A stretch of 64,000 bases of DNA from Gemmatimonadota bacterium (lineage in GTDB: Bacteria > Gemmatimonadota > Gemmatimonadetes > Gemmatimonadales > GWC2-71-9): assembly GCA_025357945.1 (NCBI GenBank), contig JANYLJ010000038.1:1-64000 (forward strand), given 5' to 3'. This document shows, piece by piece, positions 6,129-14,006 of this stretch (position 1 is its first letter; each line of letters opens with the position of its first letter). The notes under the pieces are model-generated. The model made no database searches. It saw nothing but the letters and a program-made list of their open reading frames with translations, and was not told the origin of the DNA. A program made the position numbers and the translations under genes.

Positions 6129-6166
6129 GAGATGGAACGTAACGCGTGGGGTTGGTTCACGGACTT

Positions 6167-6199
6167 GTCATCCTGCGCGAAGGGAAGGATCTTCTCGCC
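6167..6199 (+). repeat. TCATCCTGAGCG-type repeat abutting a start codon
   Basis: GTCATCCTGCGCGAAGGGAA followed by GGATCTTCTCGCC: one copy of the repeat family also seen at 9108, 13974, 24091 and 30709. It ends immediately before the ATG at 6200, so its GAAGGGAAGGA stretch is the only Shine-Dalgarno-like sequence for the downstream gene. Confidence 0.65.
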
Positions 6200-7180
6200 A
6201 TGACTACATCGAGCCCGATTTCGGCCTTCCTCCGCCACCACTACCGCCACTTCAACGCGGCGACACTCATCGACGCGACCGACGGTTATGTGCGCCATCT
6301 CGATGCCGGGGGCAAGATGATGATTACCCTCGCCGGCGCAATGAGCACCGCCGAATTGGGACTCTCGCTCGCCGAGATGATTCGCCAGGGCAAGGTCCAG
6401 GCGATCACCTGCACCGGTGCCAACCTGGAGGAAGACATCTTCAACCTGGTCGCGCACGACTACTACGAGCGCGTGCCGCACTACCGCGACCTCACGGCAC
6501 ACGATGAGAAGGCGCTGCTCGATCGCCACATGAATCGCGTCACCGACACCTGCATTCCCGAGATGGAAGCGATGCGGCGACTGGAAGGCGCGGTGCTCGA
6601 AGAGTGGCTGGCGGCGGATCAGGCGGGCGAGCGCTACTTCCCGCACGAGTTCTTCTATCGGGTGTTGCGCTCAGGCAAACTCACCCAGTTCTATCAGATC
6701 GATCCGAAGAACTCGTGGATGCTCGCCGCCTGCGAAAAGAACCTCCCGATCTGGGTTCCGGGCTGGGAAGACTCCACCCTTGGCAACATGTACTCCGGCC
6801 ACTGCATCACCAAGGACATCACGAACGTCCACACCGTGCGCACCGGCATTGAGTACATGATGACGCTGGCAGAGTGGTACCTGGCGAACGCCACCGGTCA
6901 GGGGATCGGCTTTTTCCAGATCGGCGGCGGCATCGCCGGAGACTTCCCGATTTGCGTCGTGCCGATGCTGCACCAGGATCTGCAGCGCGAGGACATCCCG
7001 GTCTGGGCCTACTTCTGCCAGATCTCGGACTCGACCACCAGCTACGGTTCCTACTCCGGTGCCGTCCCCAACGAGAAGATCACCTGGGGCAAGCTTGGGA
7101 TCGACACGCCGAAGTACATCGTAGAGAGCGATGCGAGCATCGTGGTACCACTGATGTTTGCGATGATCCTAGGGCAGTGA
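6200..7180 (+). CDS. Deoxyhypusine synthase family protein
   Basis: A 326-residue homologue of deoxyhypusine synthase (NAD-dependent transfer of the spermidine aminobutyl group to a lysine amine). TWGKL at 295-299 aligns with the SWGKI segment of human DHS that carries the catalytic Lys329, so Lys298 is the likely imine lysine. The last 28 residues, with DASIVVPL, also match the family. Bacteria lack eIF5A, so the acceptor must differ; related bacterial enzymes have been linked to homospermidine formation, but that is not shown here. The ATG at 6200 is preferred over an upstream one at 6146, whose product would begin with translated repeat. Confidence 0.9.
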   Translation: MTTSSPISAFLRHHYRHFNAATLIDATDGYVRHLDAGGKMMITLAGAMSTAELGLSLAEMIRQGKVQAITCTGANLEEDIFNLVAHDYYERVPHYRDLTAHDEKALLDRHMNRVTDTCIPEMEAMRRLEGAVLEEWLAADQAGERYFPHEFFYRVLRSGKLTQFYQIDPKNSWMLAACEKNLPIWVPGWEDSTLGNMYSGHCITKDITNVHTVRTGIEYMMTLAEWYLANATGQGIGFFQIGGGIAGDFPICVVPMLHQDLQREDIPVWAYFCQISDSTTSYGSYSGAVPNEKITWGKLGIDTPKYIVESDASIVVPLMFAMILGQ

Positions 7181-9982: not shown

Positions 9983-10642
9983 TCAGAACTCCGCCAACCG
10001 CCCCTTGTCCAGCAACGCCCAACAACACAACGCCACGTGACTCTCGTGGCCCTGGATAAGCTTCCGCACTGTTGGTTTTCTGATCCCCTTGAACACGACC
10101 GCGGCCGCCCGCACCACGCCCGCGTCACCCTCGGGCCAGATGCCTGGGTGTCCGAAGCCGAAGATCGCGATCATATGCGCACTCCAGGGCCCTAGCCCGC
10201 GCAACGCCACGATCTCGCCAACGAGTTCGTCGGCGGAGAGATCCTGCCATTTCTTGCGCGGATCGCCGTGTTCGGCGAGAAAGAATCCCCAGTTCGCCAT
10301 CGCCCGGCGCTTGGCGCGCGACAGCGAGTGCGCGGGCGGCGCGTCGGCTGGCGTCCGCATCGCCCACGCGACGATGCCGTTGATATCGCCGTGCGCATCG
10401 ATCAATGTTTTCATGATGCTGCGCGCGGCCGCGGTCGACACCAGCTGGCCCACGATGGTGCGGACCACGAGATGGGACAGCGGTCGCTTGTCGGGAACGG
10501 TGCGCTCGAGCGGATGCGCCAGTTTGACCAGGCGCGCAAGGCGGGGATGCCGTGCCGACAGTTCTCGGCGAGCGGCGGCGTGCGCGTTCGTCCTGGGGGC
10601 ACGGGTGCCGCCCAACCGGGTGGCGTCGCGGCGACGGGGCAT
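9983..10642 (-). CDS. HhH-GPD DNA glycosylase (3-methyladenine type)
   Basis: A 219-residue base-excision repair enzyme of the AlkA-like HhH-GPD superfamily. The helix-hairpin-helix is LRGLGPWSAHM (147-157) and the catalytic aspartate is Asp173 in WPEGDAGV. There is no C-terminal Cys cluster, so it is not an EndoIII/MutY-type Fe-S enzyme. The first 30 residues are Arg-rich and may be an extension or an early start. It should remove alkylated purines from DNA. Confidence 0.88.
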   Translation of the reverse strand: MPRRRDATRLGGTRAPRTNAHAAARRELSARHPRLARLVKLAHPLERTVPDKRPLSHLVVRTIVGQLVSTAAARSIMKTLIDAHGDINGIVAWAMRTPADAPPAHSLSRAKRRAMANWGFFLAEHGDPRKKWQDLSADELVGEIVALRGLGPWSAHMIAIFGFGHPGIWPEGDAGVVRAAAVVFKGIRKPTVRKLIQGHESHVALCCWALLDKGRLAEF

Positions 10643-10854: not shown

Positions 10855-12309
10855 TCAGGATGCCCTGGTCAGCGCCTCGAGTGCGCGGTGCAGCTTCACC
10901 ATCGCGAGGGTGTCCAGTTTGCAGTAGTCGAGCAACTGCTGGCGGTGGGAATCCTGGTCCGCCGGATCGCGTCGCCCGACAGTCATCAGGGCGAAGAGTC
11001 CCGCCGCGTCCTCTCCGTTCCCGACACCCGTCCCGGAATAGCTCAGCTCCGGGGCGACGACCGGCAGCACGTTCTTGATGCTGGTTCGTCCAAGAAAGGC
11101 GGGGTGACAATACCCGTTGCGCACAATAGGCTCAAAATCCACCAGTCGGGCGATGATGGCATGCAGCGCTGCCGCGAACTCCGGCAACGACGTTGCCATC
11201 GCCGCGAGGCGCTGTTTCTCGTAGCCGGAGTACACGACGATCGAACCACGATCCCCGAGCCGTTCGATCAACGCGACGGCGAGCTCGTGGCGCCAGTCGC
11301 CGCCGATCGGTGCCAGGTATTCGTGATGCGCGATCTCGTGCCCGACTCGATCGCACACATGAATGGAAAACTGAAACGGCATGATCTCGTATGGCGCGCA
11401 CTCGTCAAACCATGGCAACGCTGGTGCGACCGCCTCGAAGTCGAGGTAGTACACTGGCCACACCAACTGGTTCAATTGAGCCAACTCCGCCTGATCGATC
11501 AACGGCGCCCCTGATCGTACGGCATTGAAGACCCGGTGCTGCGGCCCGGTGAGGTTCGCGCCGGCGGGAACCGCCGACAGCCGCTGATACTCCTTCATCG
11601 CCTCAAATCGCTTTTCCGACAACCGCGGCAGAATGAACAGCGGATCGGTAATCCCTTTTCCCACACAATCCGAGGCGAAGAACTCACACTTCTTGCAAAC
11701 GAACTGCAACGCCGGTGCCGGTCGATCAAGCGCGGTGCACGCAGTGGCGATCCTCGCGGACCGATCGGCGAACCCGGCTACCCGCTGCACAACGGTCTCT
11801 GTCACGTCCAGTTCAGTGAGACGTTCGGCGCCGAGCCGGCAATCGCGCCCGAGGAACATCAGCGTGCATCGCCCGACCGCGACACCCGAAGCACGCGCGA
11901 CGAACGCGGTGTACGCCAGATCGTCCAGGTGTTCGTCGCTCGCCACTCCATCCTCAGGTGCCATGGCGGACTTGACCTCGATCACGTCCCAGCCACCATC
12001 AGTGCGTCGCAACGCATCCGCGCGCGCGACGAAAGGACCCGCGACGAATGTCGCCTCGAACAACAGCGTTGCGTCCGCATTGCCCATCGCCTTCGCGGTC
12101 GCCTGCAATGCCGTCTCGGTCGGCGCGAATGGGAGCAGCGTTCCCCGGCCGAGCTGCTTCCGGGCCAACCGCCCGATCTCGGCGCCGCTGTGGAACCGCC
12201 ACTCGAGGCCGGGTCCCGGCGGGCCAGGTTCGGCCTGGGCGGCGTACCAGCCGGCGGTGTCGCAGCCGAGCGCGGCGAGAAAGGTTCGTTTGGTGACGGT
12301 CGGATTCAT
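10855..12309 (-). CDS. DUF2779 protein: Cas4/RecB-like nuclease plus DEDDy exonuclease-like domain
   Basis: A 484-residue protein. The N-terminal half resembles a Fe-S PD-(D/E)XK nuclease: Glu85, Asp98 (ARADAL), Glu111-Val-Lys113, then DDLAYTAF like the QxxxY motif, and four cysteines placed as in Cas4/AddB (Cys16 near the N-terminus; Cys205, Cys208 and Cys215 after the core). The C-terminal half (from about 286) is the DUF2779 region and carries DEDDy signatures: Asp290-Phe-Glu292 (YYLDFE) and Tyr462-Cys-Lys-Leu-Asp466. The family has no established function; two nucleases in one chain is my reading of the residues. No CRISPR or recombination gene is adjacent. The 188 bp to the divergent decarboxylase hold both promoters. 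Confidence 0.82.
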   Translation of the reverse strand: MNPTVTKRTFLAALGCDTAGWYAAQAEPGPPGPGLEWRFHSGAEIGRLARKQLGRGTLLPFAPTETALQATAKAMGNADATLLFEATFVAGPFVARADALRRTDGGWDVIEVKSAMAPEDGVASDEHLDDLAYTAFVARASGVAVGRCTLMFLGRDCRLGAERLTELDVTETVVQRVAGFADRSARIATACTALDRPAPALQFVCKKCEFFASDCVGKGITDPLFILPRLSEKRFEAMKEYQRLSAVPAGANLTGPQHRVFNAVRSGAPLIDQAELAQLNQLVWPVYYLDFEAVAPALPWFDECAPYEIMPFQFSIHVCDRVGHEIAHHEYLAPIGGDWRHELAVALIERLGDRGSIVVYSGYEKQRLAAMATSLPEFAAALHAIIARLVDFEPIVRNGYCHPAFLGRTSIKNVLPVVAPELSYSGTGVGNGEDAAGLFALMTVGRRDPADQDSHRQQLLDYCKLDTLAMVKLHRALEALTRAS

Positions 12310-12497
12310 CTGTGCCAGAATCTATCGCAAACCTTCGTCGTACATTCGGCGGTGGCCGATTAAGCTCACGTCTGGCATACTCGGGTCGCGGGTCCGTTTG
12401 GCTGCATCCGGCGCCGCAGTTGCGCGGGTGGCCAAACGGGCCAATTACTCGATATTCCGCGACATCACCGCGCCAATTACATCCAACCGGAGCCTCT

Positions 12498-14006
12498 GTG
12501 CCCCAGCTGCACCCCGACCTCCCCACGGCCGAATTCAAGGCTCTTGGCCACGACGTCATCGACCTGCTGGCTGATTACTACGCCGGGATCGAGGCCGCTC
12601 CGGCGTTTCCCGGGTGCAAGCCTGCCGACGTCGCCGCACTCTTCGACGCACCGCCCCCGGAACAGGGGGAATCGGCCGCGGCGATTCTGGCGGATTGGCG
12701 CGACAAGATCATCCCCAACTCGTCGCGCCAGGGATCACCCCGCTGGTTTGGTTTCGTGAACGGGTCGGGATCACAGATCGCGACCCTCGCCGACGCGATG
12801 GCGAGCACGCTCAATCCCAACTGCGGTGGCTGGCGGGCGTCGCCCGCGGCCACCGAAATCGAACGGCGCACCGTCCGATGGCTCGCCGAACTGATGGGCT
12901 ATGTGTCCGAGTGTGGTGGCGTCTTTGTCAGCGGCGGGACGATGGCGAACGTCGCCGCACTGAGGGTGGCACTCTGCGCCAAGGCGACGTGGAACGTCGA
13001 CATGGATGGCCTGCAGTCGCGGAACGGTGCCGGCCGGATGACGGTGTACATGGCCGATCACGAAACGCATGTTTCCATGGTGCGCGCGGTGGACCTGCTC
13101 GGCCTCGGTCGATCGGCACTGCGCGCCGTACCGTCGAACGCCGACTTCACCATCGACGTGCAGGCGCTCGAACGGATGCTGGACGCCGACATTGCGGTGG
13201 GAATGACGCCGTTCTGCATCGTCGGTCACGTCGGCTCGATCAACGTCGGCGCGATCGACGACATCAACGCGCTCGCCAACGTCGCCGCGCGTCGCAATCT
13301 CTGGTTGCACCTCGACGGTGCCTGCGGTGCCCTCGGTGGCATGTTGCCGGAGTTGCAGCCGCAGCTCAACGGCATGGTGCGTGCCGACTCCGTTTCCTTC
13401 GATGCCCACAAATGGCTCGGCGTTCCCTACGAAGCCGGCTGCCTGATGGTACGCGAGATCGCGGCACTCCGCCGCGCCTTCGCGATGCAGGCCACCTACC
13501 TCCTCCCCGCCAAGGACAACGAATACAGCGGTGACAATTATTTCGACTACGGCCCGCAACTCTCGCGCAGCTGGCGCGCCCTCAAGGTATGGATGACGCT
13601 GCGCTACTACGGCGCCGAGGGAATCCGCACCTTCTTCCGCCAGACGATTGTCTGTGCGAAGCACCTGCATAACCTCGTGGACACGTCCGACGACTTCGAA
13701 GTCGTCCAGCCGTCGCCGCTGCTCTACATCTATTCGTTCCGTTGGGCGCCCAAGGAGCTGCGCGGCAACGATGCGCTGCTGGATGAACTGAACCAGCAGA
13801 TCTCGGACGAATTGCAGCGGCGGTTGATCGCGTTCGCAATGACCACGCGGATTCGTGGCCGCGTGACGCAGCGGCTGTCGATCTGTTCGCACCGGACGAC
13901 GACCGCCGATATCGATGCGACGTTTCAGGCGATGCGCGTGATCGGGCAGGAGTTGCTGGCAACAACCACGGCCCATCATCCTGAGCGGAGTGAAGGACCG
14001 GTGTAG
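12498..14006 (+). CDS. PLP-dependent (aromatic/acidic) amino-acid decarboxylase family protein
   Basis: A 502-residue group II decarboxylase (DDC/GAD superfamily, fold type I). The PLP lysine is Lys305 in DAHKWLG; Asp273 in HLDGA contacts the pyridine nitrogen; ADHETH (186-191) supplies the stacking histidine. Substrate could be tyrosine, tryptophan, DOPA or glutamate-type and is not decidable here. The frame is open upstream to 12312, but GTG 12498 follows CCGGAG and gives the usual N-terminus (LHPDLPTAEFKALGHDVIDL). The last residues, HHPERSEGPV, are encoded by a TCATCCTGAG repeat, so the original C-terminus has been replaced or extended. Confidence 0.88.
   Translation: MPQLHPDLPTAEFKALGHDVIDLLADYYAGIEAAPAFPGCKPADVAALFDAPPPEQGESAAAILADWRDKIIPNSSRQGSPRWFGFVNGSGSQIATLADAMASTLNPNCGGWRASPAATEIERRTVRWLAELMGYVSECGGVFVSGGTMANVAALRVALCAKATWNVDMDGLQSRNGAGRMTVYMADHETHVSMVRAVDLLGLGRSALRAVPSNADFTIDVQALERMLDADIAVGMTPFCIVGHVGSINVGAIDDINALANVAARRNLWLHLDGACGALGGMLPELQPQLNGMVRADSVSFDAHKWLGVPYEAGCLMVREIAALRRAFAMQATYLLPAKDNEYSGDNYFDYGPQLSRSWRALKVWMTLRYYGAEGIRTFFRQTIVCAKHLHNLVDTSDDFEVVQPSPLLYIYSFRWAPKELRGNDALLDELNQQISDELQRRLIAFAMTTRIRGRVTQRLSICSHRTTTADIDATFQAMRVIGQELLATTTAHHPERSEGPV
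13974..14001 (+). repeat. TCATCCTGAGCG repeat forming a protein C-terminus
   Basis: CATCATCCTGAGCGGAGTGA then AGGACCGG, a canonical copy of the repeat. It is translated in frame as HHPERSEGP at the end of the decarboxylase, and the stop codon follows after one further codon. Confidence 0.75.

Follow-up and report, generated by a model that had tools for sequence, protein, structure and literature searches.

A DUF2779 protein of a Gemmatimonadota bacterium is predicted to join a Cas4-like nuclease fold and a PolB-type exonuclease fold in one chain

Confident structural models support the presence of two separate nuclease folds, with conserved catalytic-type residues, in a single DUF2779 (PF11074) chain of a Gemmatimonadota bacterium. 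The protein has 484 amino acids and is encoded by an open reading frame with an ATG start at positions 10855..12309 (- strand) of the window, the 64,000-nucleotide stretch of DNA analysed here. The two-domain layout is widespread and was already described in 2014, when Majorek et al. assigned DUF2779, as family F.17 of the RNase H-like superfamily, to the clade of 3'-5' exonucleases and recorded that it contains DUF83 (Cas4-like), a PD-(D/E)XK-like domain (PMC3985635). New here are the absence of Cas1 and PF12705 from the genome and a tendency of DUF2779 and AddAB to exclude each other in Gemmatimonadales. No report of a tested function was found in the literature on DUF2779. The family is a widespread and unstudied one, with two intact-looking nuclease active sites per chain and no assigned job. 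The partial exclusion of AddAB provides a concrete, testable idea of its function, and its modest size makes the protein a practical biochemical target.

The Pfam model PF11074 covers residues 287-410 (E 2.3e-31, 109.1 bits against a gathering cut-off of 23.3), and PDDEXK_1 matches residues 92-210 weakly (E 0.01, under its cut-off). An NCBIfam scan of the protein at E 0.01 gave no match. Searches of the PDB sequences with the protein alone and then with a 63-member profile gave no meaningful match either, so that the relation to solved structures was recognised only by structure comparison. The whole-chain AlphaFold2 model, built from an alignment of 63 sequences, has a pLDDT of 96.5 and a pTM of 0.92. 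Comparison with solved structures returned the folds expected from the sequence-only reading, which had proposed a Cas4-like and an exonuclease-like domain, rather than different ones. Homologues for the conservation analysis were collected from Gemmatimonadota genomes (PF11074 HMM), plasmids (tblastn), viral contigs and reference genomes. The reference genomes hold at least 537 relatives, the best 80 of which were kept, covering many bacterial phyla and one archaeon. The catalytic-type residues and the cysteines discussed below are near-invariant in the 142 aligned sequences.

Residues 1-232 (11614..12309, - strand) form a predicted Cas4/RecB-fold PD-(D/E)XK nuclease domain, assigned from a separate model, structure matches and conservation. 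Modelled alone, this part has a pLDDT of 94.7. Structure comparison (VIA) showed that residues 1-226 fit Cas4 and related RecB-fold nucleases, the best match being the Cas4/1 structure 7mi4 (Z 12.8, 198 residues, rmsd 4.3). SSO0001 (4ic1) follows with a Z of 10.7 and ranks at the top in Foldseek (E 2.8e-6), and further VIA matches include MGME1, lambda exonuclease, RecE, AdnA and EXO5, among others. The residues of the RecB-like fold proposed earlier as D98-x12-E111-x-K113 are at those positions, with D98, E111 and K113 present in 140, 139 and 140 of the 142 homologues. The four cysteines, read as being placed as in Cas4 and AddB, are retained in 137 (C16), 139 (C205), 141 (C208) and 138 (C215) of them. 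The QxxxY motif of Cas4 is absent from the protein, in which T134 occupies the place of the Gln and A138, not Tyr, the fifth position. Two homologues on Salinibacter plasmids (L046:8022-9413 and L049:7794-9383) both lack the first cysteine and have an extra cysteine inside the C-terminal cysteine cluster; the extra residue could restore four ligands.

Residues 283-484 (10858..11463, - strand) are assigned as a DnaQ/PolB-type exonuclease domain with D290, E292, E364, Y462 and D466, on the grounds of structure matches and conservation. This part fits the exonuclease domains of family-B DNA polymerases with Z of 14-16.2 over about 170 residues (VIA). The best match is 8g99 (Z 16.2, rmsd 3.1, 175 residues). 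In the match to the 9N polymerase 1qht (Z 14.2, 169 residues), residues 285-484 of the model lie on residues 136-333 of the polymerase. With the ends of the aligned ranges as fixed points, D290/E292 correspond to D141/E143 and Y462/D466 to Y311/D315 of this archaeal PolB, its exonuclease residues. D290 and E292 are present in all 142 homologues; Y462, D466 and C463 are each present in 141, the exception being a gap, although the search pattern for the 80 reference-genome homologues itself required Y462, C463 and D466. These three are likewise invariant in 27 sequences gathered by the Pfam HMM search and the plasmid tblastn. The proposed D290-x-E292 and Y462-x3-D466 motifs are located as described. 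Also conserved are E364 (141/142), D391 (142/142) and K412 (142/142). In the model, a strand at residues 356-359 is followed by a helix from residue 363, which puts Y363-E364 at motif II, where the polymerase has FD. The second acidic motif is therefore most likely E364, a Glu for the usual aspartate that was missing from the earlier residue list, this placement being drawn from secondary structure and aligned ranges rather than from a residue-level alignment. Thus, the earlier assignment to the DEDDy exonucleases holds for the fold, the DxE motif I and the YxxxD motif III, but not for the motif II aspartate, and with an invariant Glu as the probable second acid this half would be a DEED-y variant rather than a strict DEDDy enzyme.

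A tree computed with a quick method placed the protein in a set of ten sequences from Gemmatimonadota, Planctomycetota and Elusimicrobiota (SH-aLRT 100). Position 134, the site of the Gln in the Cas4/RecB QxxxY motif, is Thr in all 11 members of this subfamily examined and Gln in 129 of the 131 other homologues. The DUF2779 sequences group by phylum in the tree, indicating that horizontal transfer is not rampant. A viral-contig search with the protein alone gave no close relative, and the same search with the alignment gave six relatives; no close relative was found in the phage genomes searched.

The overall layout of the protein is identical to that of family F.17, with Thr for Gln at position 134 in the subfamily. 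RecB-like nucleases of the COG2251/TM0106 family likewise have Cas4-like and RNase H-like exonuclease domains in a single chain; they often carry added AAA domains (PMC3985635), which the window protein lacks. On a Sphingobium plasmid (L047:7261-12554), genes for a DUF2779 protein and a TM0106-family nuclease lie about 2 kb apart with a WYL-domain gene beside each. The Cas4 proteins SSO0001 and Pcal_0546 and the Cas4/1 fusion share the fold (Z up to 12.8), the D-ExK residues and the four cysteines. In contrast to Cas4, the protein has an added exonuclease domain and Thr for the motif Gln, and its genome has no cas1. A RecB-fold nuclease domain is also common to AddB/AddA and AdnAB, and AddB has Fe-S-type cysteines as well, whereas the DUF2779 protein is a single 484-residue chain devoid of a helicase domain. 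The 3'-5' exonuclease domain of family-B DNA polymerases shares the fold (Z 14-16), DxE and YxxxD, but the DUF2779 protein has no polymerase domain and has the probable motif II Glu. Predicted giant-virus proteins match the whole chain, such as E3T4R0 of Cafeteria roenbergensis virus (TM 0.59/0.50, E 1.1e-12) at about 10% identity.

The source genome is 99.8% complete and has a single DUF2779 gene. Neither Cas1 nor a PF12705 (RecB/AddB-type) nuclease was found in searches of the whole genome, although the PF12705 model gives matches in 12 of the 14 genomes used as controls; the location outside any CRISPR or RecBCD locus noted earlier is thus borne out. No helicase was found within the chain or among the adjacent genes. 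Downstream on the same strand (9983..10642, -) lies a gene for a 219-residue AlkA-like DNA glycosylase, which has no Pfam or NCBIfam match and is recognisable only through solved 3-methyladenine glycosylases (phmmer to 2yg8, E 5.6e-9). A divergent pyridoxal-dependent decarboxylase gene (12312..14006, + strand; PF00282, E 1.2e-61) lies upstream and, by synteny, forms the other edge of a variable slot. Genes for a DCC1-like protein and a protein kinase are also nearby. Two congeneric genomes (G035 and G055) have the decarboxylase and the glycosylase close together with no DUF2779 gene between them. A third (G067) has a different, long DUF2779 protein in this place (L185:10568-12391, 608 residues, 24.5% identity). 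The content of the slot thus differs between relatives, through gain or loss. The same evidence led us to reject a conserved glycosylase-DUF2779 operon; the glycosylase was not seen beside the other sampled homologues either, so the two genes are not a fixed pair. The closest relative, G035, has its own homologue, 52% identical, ~140 kb from the slot. This homologue (L141:7961-9106) overlaps an uncharacterised 180-residue gene by 4 bases, followed by a DUF488 gene. Elsewhere in the window, positions 6146-7180 (+ strand) encode a deoxyhypusine synthase family protein (PF01916, E 5.6e-37), here in a bacterium.

Comparisons across Gemmatimonadales suggest that DUF2779 and AddAB tend towards mutual exclusion. 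Taking a strong PF12705 match (E below 1e-20) as AddAB-type, DUF2779 is present in 2 of 27 AddAB-type genomes and in roughly half of the remaining genomes, or a little less. The strong matches in the order are largely adjacent pairs of about 1050 residues; two pairs resemble AddB plus AddA by Pfam, one of them also by NCBIfam, under the curated cut-offs. In family f1, DUF2779 occurs in 2 of the 13 genomes that have a strong match vs. 44 of the 88 that have none (Fisher p 0.034). In family f2, whose size was taken as between 84 and about 128 genomes, the counts are 0 of 14 with a strong match vs. 40 of 70 to about 114 without (p 4e-5 to about 0.006). Genus g49 (18 genomes) shows the same direction without significance (0/4 vs. 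7/14, p 0.12). Both genes occur together in G049, G054, G101 and G137, the last two of which are outside the order. Many genomes carry neither. Outside Gemmatimonadales AddAB-type matches are common and DUF2779 is rare. Part of the anticorrelation can stem from kinship between the genomes and from assemblies that are incomplete. A stronger proposal, that DUF2779 functionally replaces AddAB/RecBCD in Gemmatimonadales as a helicase-free enzyme, acquired where AddAB was lost, that resects or clears DNA ends of both polarities, seems unlikely.

There is about an even chance that the protein is a helicase-free bifunctional nuclease serving as an accessory DNA-repair or end-processing enzyme in genomes without AddAB/RecBCD. 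A putative Fe-S cluster on C16, C205, C208 and C215 would probably hold the N-terminal fold together, and by analogy with Cas4, AddB and EXO5 this domain may cut or trim single strands or 5' ends of DNA. The C-terminal domain would digest 3' ends using two metals on D290, E292, E364 and D466, assisted by Y462. Together the domains could act on DNA ends or single strands from either polarity, and the enzyme would most likely be an accessory one that is gained or lost in genomes lacking AddAB/RecBCD. We infer all of these parts: the cluster, the activities, their polarity and substrate, and the repair role. The near-invariant residues across many phyla, the confident models, the absence of PF12705 and Cas1 and the AddAB anticorrelation argue for repair or end processing; the confounding of that anticorrelation, the non-conserved glycosylase neighbour and the WYL neighbours found elsewhere argue against it. 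The sequence-only reading had seen a candidate undescribed repair or defence enzyme. The layout proved to be a published one and the window neighbours do not indicate defence; repair is somewhat better supported, and both remain candidate roles.

The main rival, with a smaller but appreciable probability, is an anti-plasmid or anti-phage defence nuclease that moves between genomes and is regulated by WYL proteins and aided by AAA ATPases in some lineages. The gene is patchily distributed (83 of 298 Gemmatimonadota genomes by the PF11074 HMM), homologues occur in 29 plasmid records from many genera, and the slot of the window copy is empty in two close relatives. Of the 75 genes that neighbour homologues within an operon, 7-8 encode WYL proteins, compared with 2 of 116 at a distance of four genes (Fisher p 0.015-0.03), and an AAA domain adjoins the DUF2779 gene in some loci. 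However, the WYL association holds in a minority of loci and the gene calling was crude; two suspected WYL neighbours are Sel1-repeat and Sir2 proteins. The enrichment of AAA ATPases among in-operon neighbours is not significant (p 0.11). A general AAA-DUF2779-WYL module was rejected by clustering, both partners lying within five genes in 4 of 96 loci. In the window itself the neighbours are metabolic or housekeeping genes with no WYL or AAA among them, and the only PADLOC match, short, weak and probably spurious, is with a type I specificity subunit (E 0.00067). The grouping of the tree by phylum also speaks against frequent movement.

It is improbable that the protein is a general nucleic-acid degrader for nucleotide salvage or the removal of stray DNA or RNA, without a dedicated part in repair or defence. 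A transposon mutant in the Mycoplasma bovis DUF2779 gene Mbov_0804 grows poorly only when co-cultured with host cells and is listed alongside mutants in the nanoRNase NrnA, GdpP, RecD and HolA (PMC7373297). However, the same screen also struck replication and recombination genes, and Mbov_0804 is compared with the window protein here at the level of the family. Least likely of all is that only one domain is an active nuclease and the other serves for binding, with the T134 N-terminal domain or the Glu-motif-II exonuclease weakened: the Thr of the subfamily, the invariant Glu and the eukaryotic Pol alpha domains, which give the highest Z and are catalytically dead exonucleases, would fit this, but the core D-ExK, DxE and YxxxD residues persist across the family, the subfamily included, and the invariance of the Glu suggests selection for function.
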